Positions 20,221 through 29,022 of a stretch of 64,000 bases of DNA are shown here, piece by piece; the stretch's first letter is position 1, and each line of letters opens with the position of its first letter. Both the position numbers and the translations under genes were made by a program. Under the pieces are notes generated by a model that was not told the origin of the DNA, searched no databases, and saw nothing but the letters and a program-made list of their open reading frames with translations. Origin of the DNA: Desulfovibrionaceae bacterium (lineage in GTDB: Bacteria > Desulfobacterota > Desulfovibrionia > Desulfovibrionales > Desulfovibrionaceae); contig JAFLSV010000001.1 in the NCBI GenBank assembly GCA_022510785.1, positions 62,001 to 126,000 of the forward strand, in the 5' to 3' direction.

Positions 20221-23016
20221 ATGAATGATGAACACAAGGTTTCCTTCTCTTCTTCCCGGCGAACCCGCAAGGCACAAGGAACAGGCGGGGTCATTTCCAT
20301 ACCGGACAAGGATCCTGGGGACAGCCCTGTGGCGCTGCCGGATTCTTCCTTTCCTGAAAATCAGGCCGAAGGCGGCGCCTTGTTTGATGATGCTATTCCC
20401 CTGCCGCCTGTTCCCTCGCCTGAGTATCCGGACAGCCAGGATGAGGAAAAAGACTCTGAGGAGACGGAAGAGCCCGCTGATGACTCCGACGCCAACGATA
20501 GACCTGACGATCAGGATACTCCGAAGCGGCCCCGGCGGCGTGTCCGCCGTCCGTCCGCGGTCACGGTCAGTCTGGAGCGGCCCAGCGGCATGGACAGCAC
20601 CCAGCAGATTCTTGCTGAAATTCCGTCCACGCTGCCCGTTGTGCCCCTCCGGGACAATGTGGTGTTTAATTCCATGATCGTGCCGCTGTACGAAAGCCGT
20701 GAAAGATCCATTCTGGCGGTGGACACGGCGCTGGGCAGCAATCGCTTTCTGCTTTTGTGCACCCAGAAGGATGCTTCGGTGGATGAGCCTAGCCCCGATG
20801 ATCTGTTTGCCGTAGGGTCGGTGGTGATGATTCTGCGGATGCTCAAATTGCCAGACGGCCAGGTGAAAATTCTGGTTCAGGGACTGGCGCGGGCACAGAT
20901 CAGGAGTTTTGTGGCCACCGAACCGTTCATGGTGGCGCGTGCGGAGATTTTGCGGGAAAAAGAGGCCGGGCCGCACGATGTGCGACAGGAGGCTCTGATT
21001 CGTTCCGCCCGCGAGCAGAGCGAAAAAATTTTAAATCTCCGGGGTATTCCTACCGGCGATATCATGGGCGTTTTGATGGCGGTGGACGACCCGGGCCGTC
21101 TGGCGGATCTTATCGCGGCCAACATGCGCCTGCGCGTGAGCGAGGCCCAGGCCCTGCTGGAATGCCTGGATCCCATGGAACGCCTGCGCATGGTCAACGA
21201 CCATCTTTCACGCGAGGTGGAAGTGGCCGACATGCAGGCCCGTATCCAGAATATGGCTCGCGAGGGCATGGACAAGGCACAGAAGGATTATTTCCTGCGT
21301 GAGCAGATGAAGGCTATCCGCCGGGAACTGGGTGACAACGCCGATCAGGAAGAGGAACTGGAAGAACTGGGCAAGGCCCTTGACAAGGCCGGTTTGCCGC
21401 CCGAAGCCCGCAAAGAGGCGGACAAGCAGCTGCGCCGTCTGGCCGCCATGCACGGCGATTCAGCCGAAGCCTCGGTTATCCGCACCTATCTGGACTGGCT
21501 GGCGGATCTGCCCTGGAAAAAAGTGTCGCGCGATCGTCTGGATATTGTGAAGGCCAAAGAAATTCTGGATGAGGATCACTTTGGTCTTGCCCGGATCAAA
21601 GACCGCATTCTTGAATACCTCAGCGTGCGCAAGCTCAATCCCGACTCCAAGGGCCCCATCCTGTGTTTTGTCGGCCCTCCGGGCGTGGGCAAAACTTCGC
21701 TGGGGCGCTCCATCGCGCGGGCCATGGGGCGCAAATTTCAGCGTATATCGCTGGGCGGCATGAGAGATGAAGCGGAAATACGCGGCCATCGGCGCACCTA
21801 TATCGGGTCAATGCCCGGTCGTGTCATCCAGGCCGTCAAACAGGCGGGAACGCGCAACCCGGTTCTTGTTCTGGACGAAATAGACAAACTGGGCAGCGAC
21901 TTTCGGGGCGATCCGTCTTCGGCCCTGCTGGAGGTGCTGGATCCCGAACAAAATTCCCATTTCAGCGACCACTACCTGAATCTGGAATTTGATCTGTCCA
22001 GAGTTCTCTTTCTGTGCACGGCCAATCAGCTGGATACCATCCCCTCAGCCCTGCTGGATCGCCTGGAGGTCATCTCACTGCCCGGCTACACGGAACAGGA
22101 AAAGCTGACCATTGCCAAAAAATATCTCGTGCCAAGGCAGCGGGGAGACAACGGACTCAAGGAGGCCGATATCACGGTGCGGGATGCGGCCATTGCCCGC
22201 ATCATACGCGAATACACACGGGAAGCGGGCTTGCGCAACCTGGAACGCCAGTTGGGTACGGTGTGCCGTAAATTGGCCCGCCGCAAGGCAGAGGGCCAGA
22301 AAGGCCCCTTTGTGGTGGCGGCCGCTCAGGTGCCCAAACTGCTGGGTGCGCCGCGCTATCTGGACGAAGAACGTGAAAATACGCTTATGCCGGGTGTGGC
22401 TCTGGGACTGGCCTGGACCCAGGCCGGCGGTGAAGTGCTGCATGTGGAAGTGAGCACCATGAAAGGTACAGGGCACCTGACGCTCACAGGCCAGTTGGGT
22501 GATGTCATGAAGGAAAGCGCTCAGGCTGCGTTAAGCTATGCCCGTTCCCACGCCGAGCATCTGGGTATTGAACCGGACTTTGCGGATAAACTGGATATCC
22601 ATGTCCATGTTCCCGCCGGAGCCACGCCCAAAGACGGCCCATCCGCCGGAGTAACCATGGTGACGGCCCTGGTTTCTGCGCTGACCGGCCGGCCTGCTCG
22701 CACCGATACCTGCATGACCGGAGAAATCACGCTGCGCGGCCGGGTTTTGCCCGTGGGAGGCATCAAGGAAAAAATTCTGGGCGCTGTGGCGCGTGGTCTG
22801 CAACATGCCGTTATTCCCAGCCAGAATGTCAAGGATCTGGAAGAGATCCCCGCCGATTTGCGCCGCCGGATTGACATCAGGTCTGTAGACAGTATTGATG
22901 AACTGCTGCCCCTGGTTCTGACCGACAAGGCAAAGGCCGCGCACAGGCAGTCCACGCCTGAGGCCAGAAAAGCCTGGCCCGCCGCAAAACAGAAAAAGAA
23001 AGCCGCCGCGCGTTAA
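20221..23016 (+). CDS. lon: Lon protease, ATP-dependent
   Basis: STLPVVPLRDNVVFNSMIVPL, GPPGVGKTSLGRSIARAMGRKFQRISLGGMRDEAEIRGHRRTYIG, DGPSAGVTMVTAL. Confidence 0.98.
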   Translation: MNDEHKVSFSSSRRTRKAQGTGGVISIPDKDPGDSPVALPDSSFPENQAEGGALFDDAIPLPPVPSPEYPDSQDEEKDSEETEEPADDSDANDRPDDQDTPKRPRRRVRRPSAVTVSLERPSGMDSTQQILAEIPSTLPVVPLRDNVVFNSMIVPLYESRERSILAVDTALGSNRFLLLCTQKDASVDEPSPDDLFAVGSVVMILRMLKLPDGQVKILVQGLARAQIRSFVATEPFMVARAEILREKEAGPHDVRQEALIRSAREQSEKILNLRGIPTGDIMGVLMAVDDPGRLADLIAANMRLRVSEAQALLECLDPMERLRMVNDHLSREVEVADMQARIQNMAREGMDKAQKDYFLREQMKAIRRELGDNADQEEELEELGKALDKAGLPPEARKEADKQLRRLAAMHGDSAEASVIRTYLDWLADLPWKKVSRDRLDIVKAKEILDEDHFGLARIKDRILEYLSVRKLNPDSKGPILCFVGPPGVGKTSLGRSIARAMGRKFQRISLGGMRDEAEIRGHRRTYIGSMPGRVIQAVKQAGTRNPVLVLDEIDKLGSDFRGDPSSALLEVLDPEQNSHFSDHYLNLEFDLSRVLFLCTANQLDTIPSALLDRLEVISLPGYTEQEKLTIAKKYLVPRQRGDNGLKEADITVRDAAIARIIREYTREAGLRNLERQLGTVCRKLARRKAEGQKGPFVVAAAQVPKLLGAPRYLDEERENTLMPGVALGLAWTQAGGEVLHVEVSTMKGTGHLTLTGQLGDVMKESAQAALSYARSHAEHLGIEPDFADKLDIHVHVPAGATPKDGPSAGVTMVTALVSALTGRPARTDTCMTGEITLRGRVLPVGGIKEKILGAVARGLQHAVIPSQNVKDLEEIPADLRRRIDIRSVDSIDELLPLVLTDKAKAAHRQSTPEARKAWPAAKQKKKAAAR

Positions 23017-23154: not shown

Positions 23155-24230
23155 CTAGTCCCAAAATAAAATTTTGTCACGGCGCACCATAAACAGTTCT
23201 GTTTCTTTAAGTGAACAGGATATAGCGTGAGATTTTTCTTTATAATGCCTTCGTTTTTTTCCAAGAAGGATATAAGACAATATTAAACATCTTAAATAAT
23301 TAATTTTTCGTTTTTTATATCCAGAAACATCAAAATATTGCTGGCATATCTGCTTTAATTTATCTGCATAAGGAGATTTTGCTGCATATTTCCAAAAATA
23401 GATATCATACTCTCTGCCTTTAAGGATACCATTTTTTTTCCATGGTTTCATATTAGATCCACCATAATGAATGATGGCAGGATGCTTTAAAGCCTCTAAG
23501 CCGCCATCTACAAGAAAGTAAAATTTTTTGCTAGCTCTCATAAAATTATATTTAATTGGTAAAAATCGTACTTTTTTATAAAAAATGCTATTAAGAACGT
23601 CTTGATCATCATACATGATACCTCCTTTCTGTTCAATCTGTTCTAATAAAAATGGAAAAGAGAAGTCATGACGAATGAGATCAAGATTAAGGAGTAATAC
23701 TCCAGAATTAAAATATTCACTTGCATCCTTCATTAGCAAAGTATCTTGAATAAATTTCTTAAAATTTTCAGTCACAGAGCGAATAAAAAAATGAACTATG
23801 ACAGCTGCAGCATAGTAATTTGTTACATCTGTATGATATAAATTTGCTATATCTTCTAAAATAATAGTATCGCAATCAAGGTATAAGACTTTATGGTATT
23901 TTTTTAACAATTCTGGCAAGAAAAGTCTGTAGTATGCCGCAAATGATAGCCAATTTACATTTTTTATTTTACTCATATCCCACATTTTAAGAAATGGCTC
24001 AATATTATATACACGAATAGATATGTTCTTTTTATTTATAATCATTGATTGAAACATATAATTATAATTTTCAATAAATTTATTTGCTACAATAATAATA
24101 TCATATTTTTCTGAATTTGAAGTGTTATCTATTATTGATTGAATTGAAGCGAAAATGGGTATAATGATATTTTCATCACCACAAAAAACAATAGAGATAC
24201 CGTTATCAAAAGCGGGATAAATTTCAGTAT
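23155..24230 (-). repeat. second copy of an intragenic ~0.9-1.0 kb GT8 domain duplication
   Basis: EIYPAFDNGISIVFCGDENIIIPIFASIQSIIDN... parallels EIHPVSDNAVSIVFCADENYIIPLVASIQSIVDN... of copy 1; long nucleotide similarity too; boundaries approximate. Confidence 0.8.
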
Positions 24231-25141
24231 ATGCGTGACATATTTGCCTTAATTCTTCTGTGTAGGGACATTTTGCAGCGAATCTCCAAAAATAACTATC
24301 ATAGTTATTGTCAGTATTAAGTCCATCTTTTTCCCAGGGTTTGCTTTGTCCAGTATAGTGAATAATAGCTGGATTGTCTAAAGCATCAGAGCCATCCTTT
24401 ACAAGGAAATAAAAATCCTTGAGCTTCCATGAGAAATTATATTTTGGCGGCAAGAATGATACTTTTTGATAAAAAATGCTATTAAGAACATCTTGAGCAT
24501 CATACATAATTCCTCCTTTCTGTTTTGCCTGCTCCAGAAGAAACGGAAAAGAGAAGTTATGGCGGATGAGGTCAAGGTTAAGAAGTAATACTCCAGCATT
24601 GAAATATTCACTTACATCTTTCATTTGCAGGTTCTGCTGTATATGGCGTATAAAATCTTCATTTATGTCCTTCATTGTAAAATAATTTTTGACGGCTGCA
24701 ACGTAATAATTTGTTATATCTGTATGATATAAATTTGTTATGTCATCAAGAATAATGGTATCGCAATCCAAATATAACACTTTATGATATTCTTTCAGTA
24801 ATTCTGGTATAAAAATTTTGTAATATACAGCATGCGATAGACTTTTTGTGATTTTTATATTATTTATATCATATTGTTTGATAAACGGTTCAATATCATA
24901 TACGCGAATTGATATATTATTTTTGTTTATAGCAACTGATTGAAGCATAGAAATATATTTTTTGCAAAAATTATTGGCAATAACAACAATATCATAATTC
25001 TCTCTCTCTCTCTCTCTCTGAAATATTATCAACTATGGATTGAATCGAAGCAACGAGTGGTATGATATAATTTTCATCCGCACAAAAAACAATAGAAACT
25101 GCGTTGTCAGAAACTGGATGGATTTCGGTTGCAGGCAACAT
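23155..25141 (-). CDS. two-domain GT8 (LgtC-like) glycosyltransferase, SSR-containing, frame-disrupted (OFF) in this sequence
   Basis: AGGAG RBS and ATG at 25141 give MLPATEIHPVSDNAVSIVFCADENYIIPLVASIQSIVDNISERERERE-L-stop; the rest (VLYLDCDTIILDDITNLYHTD, HYTGQSKPW, then a second VLYLDCDTIILEDIANLYHTD copy) is in another frame after a (GA)10 tract. The ORF track starts at TTG 25032. Confidence 0.85.
24231..25129 (-). repeat. first copy of the GT8 domain duplication
   Basis: as for 23155-24230; boundaries approximate. Confidence 0.8.
24999..25018 (-). repeat. (GA)10 dinucleotide microsatellite (TC on + strand) inside the 5' end of the glycosyltransferase gene
   Basis: direct read of aattc-tctctctctc-tctctctct-g. 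Confidence 0.98.
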
Positions 25142-25189
25142 GTTATTTCTCCTGTCAGATTCACTAGATGTCAGTAGTCGTTATGTTTT

Positions 25190-26068
25190 TTAATGAGGAA
25201 TACGCCGCAGCAGGAGCAGATAGCCGTTACGCACGGCGATGTAGGGTTCCAGCGAGGCGGAGACCACCTGTTCATAGGGTTTGTAGAGCTTGTCCATATC
25301 ATTGAACCGGAACCCCACTGAACTGGCCAGATTGGTCTGCCAGTTCAGAAAGTAATTGTGGGGAGCGGCGAACAGGTCGCCGACCATGCCCACGCTCTCC
25401 CTCGCGGTGCTGGGCCCCACGAAGGGCCAGACCAGATAGGGGCCTTCGCCCATGCCCCACACAGCCAGCGTATGCCCAAAATTTTCCGTTTCCGGGTGGT
25501 AGGGATAGAGCGGTTTGCTCTGACTGGCCACATCCGCCAGTCCCAAGCTGGTCATGGTATTAATGCAGAAACGGCCGAATTCTACCCCCGCCTGGGTAAA
25601 CTTGCCCTGCAATACGCTGTTAAAAAAACGAACCGGGGCTCCCAGATTGTGGGCAAAATTGGATATGCCGCTCCGCATAGAGGCGGGAAGCACCTTGCTG
25701 TACCCCTCATGAACCGGCTTAATCACCTTCAGCAGCAACACGTCATTAAAGTCGAACCAGAAGCGGTTCCAGGATTCAAAGGGATCAGAGACGGCCACCG
25801 CGGGGCTGTCGTCGTCATAATCGTCCAGGCTGAAGTCATCCCCGGGGATATCCAGGCTGGCCCCTCCCTTGGCGGGGCCTGGGCCGGAGTCCGCATGGCT
25901 TGCCGGTGGAGCAGAAACGTCAGCCGCCGCTGCTTGTTCCATGTGCTGAAGCGCCCGCTCCTTTCCGGCGCCGGCATCGTGCCCGGCACAGGCGCAGAGC
26001 GGTAAGAGAGCGCTTACAACCAGGATGCGTAACGGCATCATGACGTGCCGCCTCAATGTGTTACCCAT
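25190..26068 (-). CDS. mlaA: MlaA/VacJ family phospholipid-binding lipoprotein
   Basis: lipobox LLPLCACAG; DPFESWNRFWFDFNDVLLLKVIKPVHEGYSKVLP..., GPYLVWPFVGPSTARESVG. Confidence 0.94.
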   Translation of the reverse strand: MGNTLRRHVMMPLRILVVSALLPLCACAGHDAGAGKERALQHMEQAAAADVSAPPASHADSGPGPAKGGASLDIPGDDFSLDDYDDDSPAVAVSDPFESWNRFWFDFNDVLLLKVIKPVHEGYSKVLPASMRSGISNFAHNLGAPVRFFNSVLQGKFTQAGVEFGRFCINTMTSLGLADVASQSKPLYPYHPETENFGHTLAVWGMGEGPYLVWPFVGPSTARESVGMVGDLFAAPHNYFLNWQTNLASSVGFRFNDMDKLYKPYEQVVSASLEPYIAVRNGYLLLLRRIPH

Positions 26069-26069
26069 T

Positions 26070-26699
26070 TCAACGCTCTTTGCTTTTGTTCAGCTGTTCC
26101 TGAGCTTTTGCCTGCACCCGCCTGATAAGATCATCCGGACTGCCCTTGCCCAGAATGTCGCGGAACTGATCACGATAGTTCTTGATCATGCTGATACCTT
26201 CAATGATAATGTCGTACACGACCCATCGATCATTTTTAACCAGCATGCGGAAGGCTGCGGGATAGGTTTTATCACGCCCCAGAAAGTCCATCTGAATTTC
26301 GACACGAGTTCCGTTATTGGAGCTTAATTCGCCGGTGAACTGAATTTGCTGTCCATCATAAGCATCCAGCGTATCAATATAGGTATTGCGCAAGAGCTCG
26401 GTAAAGGCCGTCTGAAAATCCTTTTTCTGCTCAGGGGTGAATTGGCGCCATTGCGGCCCTACGGTGCGTGTGGAAAATTCCTCGAAATCAAACAGGTCAA
26501 GAATGGCGTTTTCAATTTTCTGGCGCTGTGCGGCGCGGGTATCCGGATTTTTGAAAGCCGGATCGTTGAGCAGGCCCAGGATATTTTGCGCCCCCTGTTC
26601 CGCGGCGGCCCTGGCTGTGCCGGGATCCGCCCGGGCGGGAGCCGTCGCCAGCAGACAGAGGCACAGTGCCGAAACTATCCATGTATGCCATCGTACCAT
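26070..26699 (-). CDS. mlaC: MlaC/Ttg2D family ABC transporter auxiliary protein
   Basis: signal peptide; FDFEEFSTRTVGPQWRQFTPEQKKDFQTAFTELLRNTYIDTLDAY. Confidence 0.93.
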   Translation of the reverse strand: MVRWHTWIVSALCLCLLATAPARADPGTARAAAEQGAQNILGLLNDPAFKNPDTRAAQRQKIENAILDLFDFEEFSTRTVGPQWRQFTPEQKKDFQTAFTELLRNTYIDTLDAYDGQQIQFTGELSSNNGTRVEIQMDFLGRDKTYPAAFRMLVKNDRWVVYDIIIEGISMIKNYRDQFRDILGKGSPDDLIRRVQAKAQEQLNKSKER

Positions 26700-27142
26700 C
26701 AGACGCCTCCAAACACGACTTTGCCGATCAGGGATTCAAGATCAAGAGTGGGCTCGGTATCGGTAATGGTATCGCCGTTTTTCAGCAGGGTATCCGAGCC
26801 GCCCGGCGCAAGCGAAATATATTTGTCGCCGATAAGGCCGCTTGTCTTGACTGACGCCATCACGTCGTCGCTCAGGTTGACGCCGTCGTTAATGCGCAGA
26901 TCGACCTCGGCCATGAACGTGTCGGGATCAAGCCGTATGGAGCTTACCCTGCCCACGGCCACGCCCGCGATTTCCACGCTGGCGCCCATGCGCAACCCTG
27001 TCACGGATGAAAAGCGGGCGGTCACGGTATAGCCGCTGGAGTCGAACACTTCCATGCGCCCCAGCTTGATCGTGAGATATGCGACGCAGACAAGTCCCAA
27101 AACGACAAAAACGCCTACTATGGATTCCTTGGCGAATCTCAT
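26699..27142 (-). CDS. mlaD: MlaD family MCE-domain lipid transport protein
   Basis: ESIVGVFVVLGLVCVAYLTIKLG, FSSVTGLRMGASVEIAGVAVGRV; AAGGAAGG before ATG 27142. Confidence 0.93.
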   Translation of the reverse strand: MRFAKESIVGVFVVLGLVCVAYLTIKLGRMEVFDSSGYTVTARFSSVTGLRMGASVEIAGVAVGRVSSIRLDPDTFMAEVDLRINDGVNLSDDVMASVKTSGLIGDKYISLAPGGSDTLLKNGDTITDTEPTLDLESLIGKVVFGGV

Positions 27143-27156
27143 GACGACCTTCCTTA

Positions 27157-27987
27157 TCAATCATCCAGCCACTCGGCAAGCGCCGAACGGACAACCGCGT
27201 CCAGCGGCGGAGCGACCATGCGGCGGGCTTCTTCAGGTTTGCGATCCAGAAACTGGCGAATGTACGGGTCATCACTGGATTCCAGCGCTTGCCGGGAGCC
27301 GGAAAACACGGCCTGCCCCTTTCGGATTACCAGCACATGATCCGCGATATGCGCCACACTGCCGAGATCGTGGGTAATCACCACTGTGGTCATGTGGGGA
27401 TAATGGCGCTTCATGTCCAGCAGCAGTTGATCCATCTGTGCGGCGGTAATGGGATCAAGTCCTGAAGTTGGCTCGTCACAGAACAGAACCGGAGGCTCGG
27501 TGACAATGGCCCGCGCCAGCCCGGCACGCTTGCGCATGCCGCCGGAAAGTTCGCTGGGGTAAAAGTCGGCAAACGCTTCCAGCCCTACTAATTGCAGAGT
27601 GCGCATGGCGGCCTCGCGCAGCATGTTTTGGGGCAGAGTCGTGTGCTCCCTGAGGGGAAGTGCCACATTTTCGGCCAGGGTGAGCGCGCCCAGCAGCGCG
27701 CCATCCTGGAACAGAACGCCGAAACGACGGCGCACTTTATGAAACTGACGGCTCGACAGGGAAAAGATGTCGCGGCCTCCCAGCAGAATACGTCCAGAAC
27801 GTGGAGCGGTCAGGCCCAGAATAATGCGCAAAAGGGTGGTTTTGCCGCAACCCGATTCACCAAGAATAACGCTGATCGCCCCGCCGGGCAGGCAGGTTGA
27901 CAGATCGCTGAGGACAAGATGGTCGCCGTAGCCTCCATCCAGATGCTCAATGCGTATATCCCAGGCGTGGTCGGTGTGGGCAGTCAT
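27157..27987 (-). CDS. mlaF: MlaF ABC transporter ATP-binding protein
   Basis: LGESGCGKTTLLRIILGL, ELSGGMRKRAGLARAIVTEPPVLFCDEPTSGLDP; start 27987 likely. Confidence 0.94.
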   Translation of the reverse strand: MTAHTDHAWDIRIEHLDGGYGDHLVLSDLSTCLPGGAISVILGESGCGKTTLLRIILGLTAPRSGRILLGGRDIFSLSSRQFHKVRRRFGVLFQDGALLGALTLAENVALPLREHTTLPQNMLREAAMRTLQLVGLEAFADFYPSELSGGMRKRAGLARAIVTEPPVLFCDEPTSGLDPITAAQMDQLLLDMKRHYPHMTTVVITHDLGSVAHIADHVLVIRKGQAVFSGSRQALESSDDPYIRQFLDRKPEEARRMVAPPLDAVVRSALAEWLDD

Positions 27988-27995
27988 TCCGGGCC

Positions 27996-28787
27996 TCAAA
28001 GCAGGAAAGAAGTCAGCACATAGTCGCCCATGAGGGTCAGCACGCAGCTCATAACCACGGCGGATGTGGTGGCGTTGCCCACGGCTTCCGCGCCCTTGCC
28101 GTCCTTGCGCAGATGAGCGGTGTAGCCCTGATAGCAACATACGGTCACCACGAGAACCGCAAACACAAAGGCCTTGAGAAAGCCACCCGACACGTCGGTC
28201 ATGGTGACGCTTGATTCAATGCCGGAAAAATAGCGTCCGTCGTTCAGGCCAAGGAGAACACAGGCCGACAGATATCCGCCGAAAATGCCAATGACGTCAA
28301 ACAGGGCTGTGAGCAGGGGGAACGCAAGCAGTGAGGCGAGCAGCCTGGGAGTAACCAGATAGCCCACGGGGGCAATGTCCATCACGTCCAGCGCGTCGAT
28401 CTGATCCGTGATGCGCATGACTCCGATCTCGGCCGTCATGGCCGAGCCGGCACGGGCTGTAACCATGATGGCCGTAAGCACAGGGCCCAGTTCACGAATG
28501 AGGGTCAGGGAAATAAGCGAGCCCAGCATGCCTTGCGCGCCAAACATGGACATGGCGTAAAACGCCTGCAGCCCGAGCACCAGACCGGTGAAGAGACTGA
28601 ACAGCAAAATAACCAGCATGGACTGGGCGCCCACAGTGTAAACCTGTTGGAAAACTTTGGAAAACAGGCGCCGGGCGCGGAAGGTTTGCCACAGCGCGTC
28701 AAGCAAAAACAGGGCCATATCGCCCAGACGGTTCAGAACGGCGAGGACAGGCGCTGCCAGTGTGGTGGAACGTGTGTTTGTGCTCAT
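27996..28787 (-). CDS. mlaE: MlaE family ABC transporter permease
   Basis: LIRELGPVLTAIMVTARAGSAMTAEIGVMRITDQIDAL; start likely 28787 (ORF open to 28808). Confidence 0.94.
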   Translation of the reverse strand: MSTNTRSTTLAAPVLAVLNRLGDMALFLLDALWQTFRARRLFSKVFQQVYTVGAQSMLVILLFSLFTGLVLGLQAFYAMSMFGAQGMLGSLISLTLIRELGPVLTAIMVTARAGSAMTAEIGVMRITDQIDALDVMDIAPVGYLVTPRLLASLLAFPLLTALFDVIGIFGGYLSACVLLGLNDGRYFSGIESSVTMTDVSGGFLKAFVFAVLVVTVCCYQGYTAHLRKDGKGAEAVGNATTSAVVMSCVLTLMGDYVLTSFLL

Positions 28788-29022
28788 ACCATTAACCGGT
28801 ACTAGCATAGCGTATCAGCGAAGCCTTGGCAATCTCCGGAATGCGTCCATATGGGATCCACGCCATGAAAATACGCCTGGCAGCGCTAAGCGCGGCGGAA
28901 AGAACGGGCCTTTTGCGCGATACCGCGGGAGCGCGCGCCTGTGCGGGCTTTTCCGGGTTTCCCCTTGCGCGCGGGGCTTTTCTGACATATATGGGCGAAA
29001 AGCATGTCCTGAGGAGAGTATT

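Follow-up and report, generated by a model that had tools for sequence, protein, structure and literature searches.

A GA repeat breaking the frame of a two-domain GT8 glycosyltransferase gene as a probable phase-variation locus in a Desulfovibrionaceae genome

The window, a stretch of 64,000 nucleotides, carries on its minus strand a glycosyltransferase gene whose frame is broken exactly within a GA repeat, and the question that it raises is whether this marks a gene under loss, an error of the assembly or a switch. The features of the locus and its surroundings are as follows.

23155 to 25141, minus strand: gene for a GT8 glycosyltransferase of two domains, its frame broken in the assembly (49 aa followed by ~610 codons in another frame)
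25149 to 25153, minus strand: AGGAG ribosome-binding site, 7 nt before ATG 25141, assigned from the sequence
25019 to 25141, minus strand: codons 1-41, N-terminus of GT8 domain 1 ahead of the tract (61% identity to the start of domain 2; dN/dS ~0.12)
24999 to 25019, minus strand: A(GA)10 simple sequence repeat, frame-breaking, in the predicted loop that joins helix 1 to strand 2 in the first GT8 domain
24992 to 24994, minus strand: TGA stop met in the present frame, read from the sequence
24246 to 24996, minus strand: GT8 domain 1 past the tract, read in another frame, with the LDCD motif and HYTGQSKPW
23158 to 24234, minus strand: GT8 domain 2 and C-terminal tail, intact and repeat-free, with DNTSNSEKYD at the site equivalent to the tract
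24505 to 24517, minus strand: in-frame ATG 24507 preceded by AAGGAGG, within domain 1; either a candidate start for a domain-2 product in the OFF state or only coding sequence of a conserved KGG motif
25190 to 28808, minus strand: mlaE-F-D-C-A genes, directly upstream (MlaA by profile; mlaE, mlaF, mlaD and mlaC from ORF sequences and gene order)
20221 to 23016, plus strand: lon protease gene, convergent neighbour (ORF and profile match)

On the minus strand the gene begins with ...CTGACAGGAGAAATAACATG, in which AGGAG occupies 25153-25149 and the A of the ATG is position 25141. Codons 1-41 (MLPATEIHPVSDNAVSIVFCADENYIIPLVASIQSIVDNIS, minus strand) run into A(GA)10, 21 nt at 25019-24999, which is read as ERERERE-L and followed by the TGA at 24994-24992, giving the 49-aa product. 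These assignments of the initial annotation were confirmed to the base. The ~610 codons past the tract, which hold the rest of both GT8 domains, form an open stretch in another frame, and a 625-aa ORF (TTG 25032 to 23155) occupies a frame other than that of ATG 25141, in agreement with the ORF coordinates given earlier. This TTG ORF is unlikely to be the true gene, since it is without an SD-like sequence and would lack strand 1 and the greater part of helix 1 of the fold. From ATG 25141 to 24999 there are 142 nt. The arithmetic of the annotation, by which 8 or 11 units restore an ORF of ~660 aa, holds: GA unit numbers of 2 mod 3 (8, 11) allow read-through to a protein of 660 or 662 aa, and the other two classes of unit number meet a stop 1 or 23 codons past the tract. 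Re-initiation at the ATGA overlap that follows the OFF stop was considered and rejected, because that ATG is outside the ON frame.

Tandem Repeats Finder reports TC x10.5 with 100% matches at this tract, and the second-longest GA/TC run of the 64-kb window has 8 nt. The number of such runs expected by chance is 2e-10 under the first-order statistics of the GT8 gene, and ~4e-7 for both strands of the 2.2 Mb genome. The probability of 610 open codons at 28% G+C without constraint is ~1e-23. The tract is therefore an intragenic repeat well above chance length, its unit is not a multiple of three, and a change in its length shifts an otherwise intact ORF in or out of frame.

The assignment as a two-domain glycosyltransferase is borne out by the PF01501 (GT8) profile, which matches in two stretches with E = 4.9e-76 and 256 bits, against a cut-off of 24.3. 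Domain 1 has LDCD (the DxD metal-binding motif) and HYTGQSKPW (the C-terminal HxxGxxKPW motif), and domain 2 has LDCD and HYGGSNMKPW. The 49-aa product alone matches the start of the GT8 profile weakly (E = 0.0077, under the cut-off), and it is 61% identical to the N-terminus of domain 2 (E = 2e-11). A comparison of domain 1 with domain 2 over 289 codons gives dN of ~0.24 and dS of ~1.07, an overall dN/dS of ~0.2, and the stretch ahead of the tract taken alone has a dN/dS of ~0.12. Together with the identity to domain 2, this value substantiates the earlier view that codons 1-41 are genuine coding sequence. The low ratios, including that of the pre-tract piece, imply that both sides of the break were kept as protein, and they indicate that purifying selection acted on both sides of the GT8 tract. 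Among solved structures, the relatives nearest by sequence are WbbM (6u4b, E = 5e-47) and LgtC (1g9r, E = 9e-27), and the enzyme probably modifies LPS or another surface glycan. The G+C content of the gene is ~28%, versus ~59% in its flanks. The gene follows mlaEFDCA immediately and in the same orientation, 48 nt past the mlaA stop; no terminator-like site was found between mlaA and the GT8 gene, so that co-transcription with the mla genes is possible.

Orthologs of the GT8 gene are present in eight genomes of the genus, all of them intact, single-domain and repeat-free. Their identity is 40-51% over the best-matching stretches, and 38% over domain 2 for the most distant one. No lon or mla genes are found near them, and the site of the locus is thus not common to them. 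A comparison of tract length in homologues from related genomes had been proposed as a check; these orthologs are repeat-free, and 48 GA tracts were found elsewhere in the genus, as described below. At the tract site the orthologs read, for example, ENASDDECYDIIV or ENASSTENYDIVV, where this gene reads DNIS-ERERERE-NYDIVV. A structure model of domain 2 places a helix at 21-37 and a strand at 44-50 with locally moderate confidence; as the model is weak overall (mean pLDDT 48.5), it served only for the locally better position of this loop. From the homologs and this model, the tract would thus fill the short loop that connects the first helix of the GT8 fold to its second strand. A hypothetical (GA)5 allele would read S-EREN-Y, which is the loop length of the orthologs, and this hints at a way in which the tract could have expanded from a short run of purines. 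A first search for named relatives with the 625-aa protein returned no matches. An alignment contains seven homologs from records labelled Mailhella or Desulfovibrionaceae and, because the closest named homologs bear these labels, the genus is probably Mailhella (Desulfovibrionaceae).

Only two places in the genome of the window (G000, 2.2 Mb) have at least six GA units, the A(GA)10 of the GT8 gene and a (GA)21, and no GA tracts of six to nine units were found elsewhere in it. Two long GA tracts are fewer than in classic phase-variable species, and we count this against a switch. The (GA)21, at G000:C13:25151-25192 (L009:5151-5193, corresponding to G000:C13:25150-25192), also breaks a frame. 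The gene concerned (ATG at 4240 of L009, second frame to 9106) looks complete apart from the break. Ahead of the tract it encodes an Mrr nuclease and the beginning of a helicase and, past it in the other frame, the end of the helicase, an ISP coupler, an Eco57I-type methylase and a Type ISP specificity domain. The profiles PF13156, PF04851, PF22240, PF07669 and PF18135 are thus found across the two frames, the domain set of a Type ISP restriction-modification (R-M) enzyme. The ortholog in genome G015 is 70% identical before and 79% after the position of the G000 tract, and 69% over the C-terminal part. It is tract-free at the G000 position and has a tract of its own at the linker between helicase and coupler. 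Two separate origins of GA tracts in one R-M gene argue for selection, and these comparisons indicate that the acquisition of a tract by the GT8 gene and by the ISP gene was independent of the orthologs. Glycosyltransferases as well as R-M enzymes count among the classic phase-variable classes.

In the genus, represented by one genome per species, 48 GA tracts of at least 8 units are distributed over 7 of the 19 genomes; the other 12 have none. CA tracts of at least 8 units number two in the same genomes, and a general expansion of dinucleotides was rejected on this count. Genes affected by or abutting the GA tracts encode FkbM methyltransferases, an acyltransferase, GT1 and GT92 glycosyltransferases, a formyltransferase and a pyruvyltransferase, and further tracts concern an Eco57I-type methylase, an autotransporter and radical-SAM genes. 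Inspection by eye of all three frames flanking each tract, left and right, distinguished ON from OFF cases, and both occur. An acyltransferase 3, a formyltransferase and an Eco57I methylase are OFF. Those in ON frame include an FkbM gene in G017, a radical-SAM gene beginning ATG-(TC)n and an autotransporter with (TC)n read as Leu-Ser within the signal peptide (L129:3948-3994). A 35-nt GA tract directly after the start codon of an exported-protein gene occurs in both G008 and G018 (L132:4002-4036 and L133:3984-4018), ON in both, with flanks that are 96-98% identical between the two genomes. In G015, three neighbouring FkbM methyltransferase genes (L141:3968-8621) each carry a GA tract close to the N-terminus; one gene is OFF and the other two are ON, and two of the three begin ATG-(AG)n and have nearly identical upstream flanks. 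Many tracts of the genus are located between genes or at gene ends, and these need not switch anything; like the absence of such tracts from 12 of the 19 genomes, this too counts against a switch.

Family-wide, GA tracts counted with one of two end patterns are found in 20 of 149 genomes and 12 of 44 genera. They are frequent in some other genera of the family too (G113, G181, G173, G019 and G134), with 28 GA tracts in G113 by one end pattern. Loss of mismatch repair as the cause of the tracts was rejected, as G000 and all eleven genomes of good quality in the genus possess MutS1; with MutS intact, tract instability need not mean repair loss. Regarding other repeat classes, which were sampled in the genome by pattern only, poly-G was rejected as a further class of switch: there are 15 G9 places and none longer, which is below a rough expectation from base composition, so that poly-G is not enriched.

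The low G+C content of the GT8 gene, a site that is not common to the orthologs, with no lon or mla genes near them, and a frame that is broken in the sole genome examined for the species would all fit a recent pseudogene, that is, a foreign AT-rich gene under loss in which the repeat slipped once and no restoration followed. We regard this as improbable, because the ~610 codons have no other stop or frame break and dN/dS is low on either side of the break. Moreover, the break falls exactly in a long GA tract, the genome's other long tract interrupts a gene from a class that is typically phase-variable, and related tracts of the genus are found in ON frames too. It is highly improbable that an error of assembly or sequencing conceals a tract that is truly in frame. 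Repeats are prone to such errors, and the GA tracts of sister genomes coincide with swapped flanks and contig ends, where the assemblies may be chimeric. However, the window tract, at 21 nt, is much shorter than any read and lies inside a 186-kb contig, so short a dinucleotide run is no typical error site, and for both tracts of G000 the two flanks belong to the same gene. Even with a wrong unit count, the tract would be a slippage site.

Alternatively, the repeat could tune rather than switch, if an internal start in the OFF frame turned a change of tract length into a toggle between a two-domain and a one-domain enzyme. The in-frame ATG 24507 has the strongest SD-like sequence of the gene, and single-domain GT8 enzymes exist in the relatives. 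Its product would begin in the middle of domain 1, however, and the KGG-coding sequence recurs in domain 2 and partly in the orthologs, so that AAGGAGG is explained by a conserved protein motif. To this toggle we give a small though appreciable probability. The OFF state proposed initially stands as to the frame break and the stop after 49 aa; owing to ATG 24507 behind AAGGAGG, it could leave part of the gene expressed and may be partial.

We consider it very probable that the locus is a simple sequence repeat (SSR) contingency locus with an OFF length in the sequenced genome, as first put forward in the initial annotation. This reading is supported by a frame-breaking tract with a chance expectation of ~4e-7 per genome, by the fact that both long GA tracts of the genome break frames, that of the GT8 gene and that of the Type ISP R-M gene, and by the recurrence of GA tracts in genes of phase-variation type across the genus. 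It draws further support from tracts that appear independent of the orthologs and from purifying selection on either side. Coding constraint is thus seen on both sides of the tract, and the same repeat class is seen in other genes of switch type. Slipped-strand mispairing would add or remove GA units and so change the frame of the GT8 gene, and daughter cells would flip at random between the full-length enzyme (2 mod 3) and a stub of ~49-71 aa. We infer a useful slippage rate, reversibility and a role in a surface glycan.

SSR phase variation is textbook knowledge, and slippage-based systems are known mostly from small-genome pathogens. LgtC of Neisseria and Haemophilus is phase-variable via other repeats. 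In Helicobacter pylori, the enzymes of HP0208 and jhp0820 are single-domain, and the repeat of HP0208 is a GA dinucleotide. Both genes are phase-variable homologues of RfaJ (GT8), and the present locus resembles them as a GT8/RfaJ-type glycosyltransferase gene with an intragenic repeat. Unlike these genes of the Campylobacterota, it is a two-domain, AT-rich and foreign-looking gene in a Desulfovibrionaceae genome. From LgtC, which together with Klebsiella WbbM is the nearest solved GT8 relative, it differs in the type and position of the repeat. In the mod gene of Mycoplasma mycoides, an (AG)n repeat of 12 units leads to a stop just past the repeat, and one of 10 units is in frame (PMC3498834); that gene encodes a Type III methyltransferase, whereas GT8 and Type ISP genes are concerned here. 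Given the phase-variable HP0208 and jhp0820 and the AG switch in Mycoplasma, the initial remark that no such switch was known for this gene type was too strong. Dinucleotide switches also operate in Haemophilus pilus promoters. The Type ISP enzymes LlaGI and LlaBIII have the order Mrr nuclease, helicase, coupler, methylase and specificity domain (PMC4666363); this full order is also found in the genome's second tract-bearing gene, but (GA)21 interrupts the helicase part of that gene. Frameshifts that are not caused by repeats have been reported from an H. pylori Type ISP locus. Like the phasomes of Neisseria, Haemophilus and Campylobacter, the genus has SSRs in glycan, R-M and surface-protein genes; those phasomes rely mainly on poly-G or tetranucleotide tracts, whereas GA is used here. 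No report of SSR phase variation in Desulfovibrio or Mailhella was found in a literature of which coverage was partial. SSR phase variation, phase-variable GT8 genes and AG switches are thus known, and what is new is the clade and its GA-dominated repertoire. If the reading is true, clonal populations of these gut relatives of sulfate reducers would be mixtures of surface types and, via the Type ISP enzyme, also of restriction and perhaps methylation types, which bears on phage resistance and immune recognition. It would also bear on the reading of metagenome-assembled genomes, whose OFF copies can easily be mistaken for pseudogenes during annotation.

When the flanks of the tracts were clustered, some tracts proved to have only the left or only the right flank in common. 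The common left end encodes a tyrosine integrase (PF00589) whose gene begins ~140 nt from the tract, and the common right end leads into an HTH_36 gene and DotI/IcmL- and TrbI-like conjugation genes. Inverted sequences are found at the ends, where (GA)n either follows ATGTGACC or ATGTGAGG or precedes TCCCTCACAT or CCCCTCACAT. Some GA tracts of three sister species form junctions with an element of this kind, which carries the integrase and conjugation genes and has the inverted end sequences ATGTGAGG / CCTCACAT. The junctions are at the following positions.

L191:2620-3999, element junction in a sister species
L193:8381-9782, element junction in a sister species
L194:5442-6813, element junction in a sister species
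L190:19913-19929, element junction in a sister species
L196:19789-19811, element junction in a sister species
L195:10375-10413, element junction in a sister species

No integrative element was seen at the two GA tracts of the window's own genome. The junctions suggest that an integrative conjugative element enters GA tracts. There is about an even chance that the tracts are doubly used, as slippage switches in surface-glycan, R-M and exported-protein genes and as attachment sites of this element. The junctions may instead reflect chimeric assembly at repeats, although the finding of identical ends in three species argues against random chimeras. In G015, the ISP gene itself is divided between two contigs; at the GA tract, the left half of the gene adjoins the right end of the element and the right half adjoins the left end.
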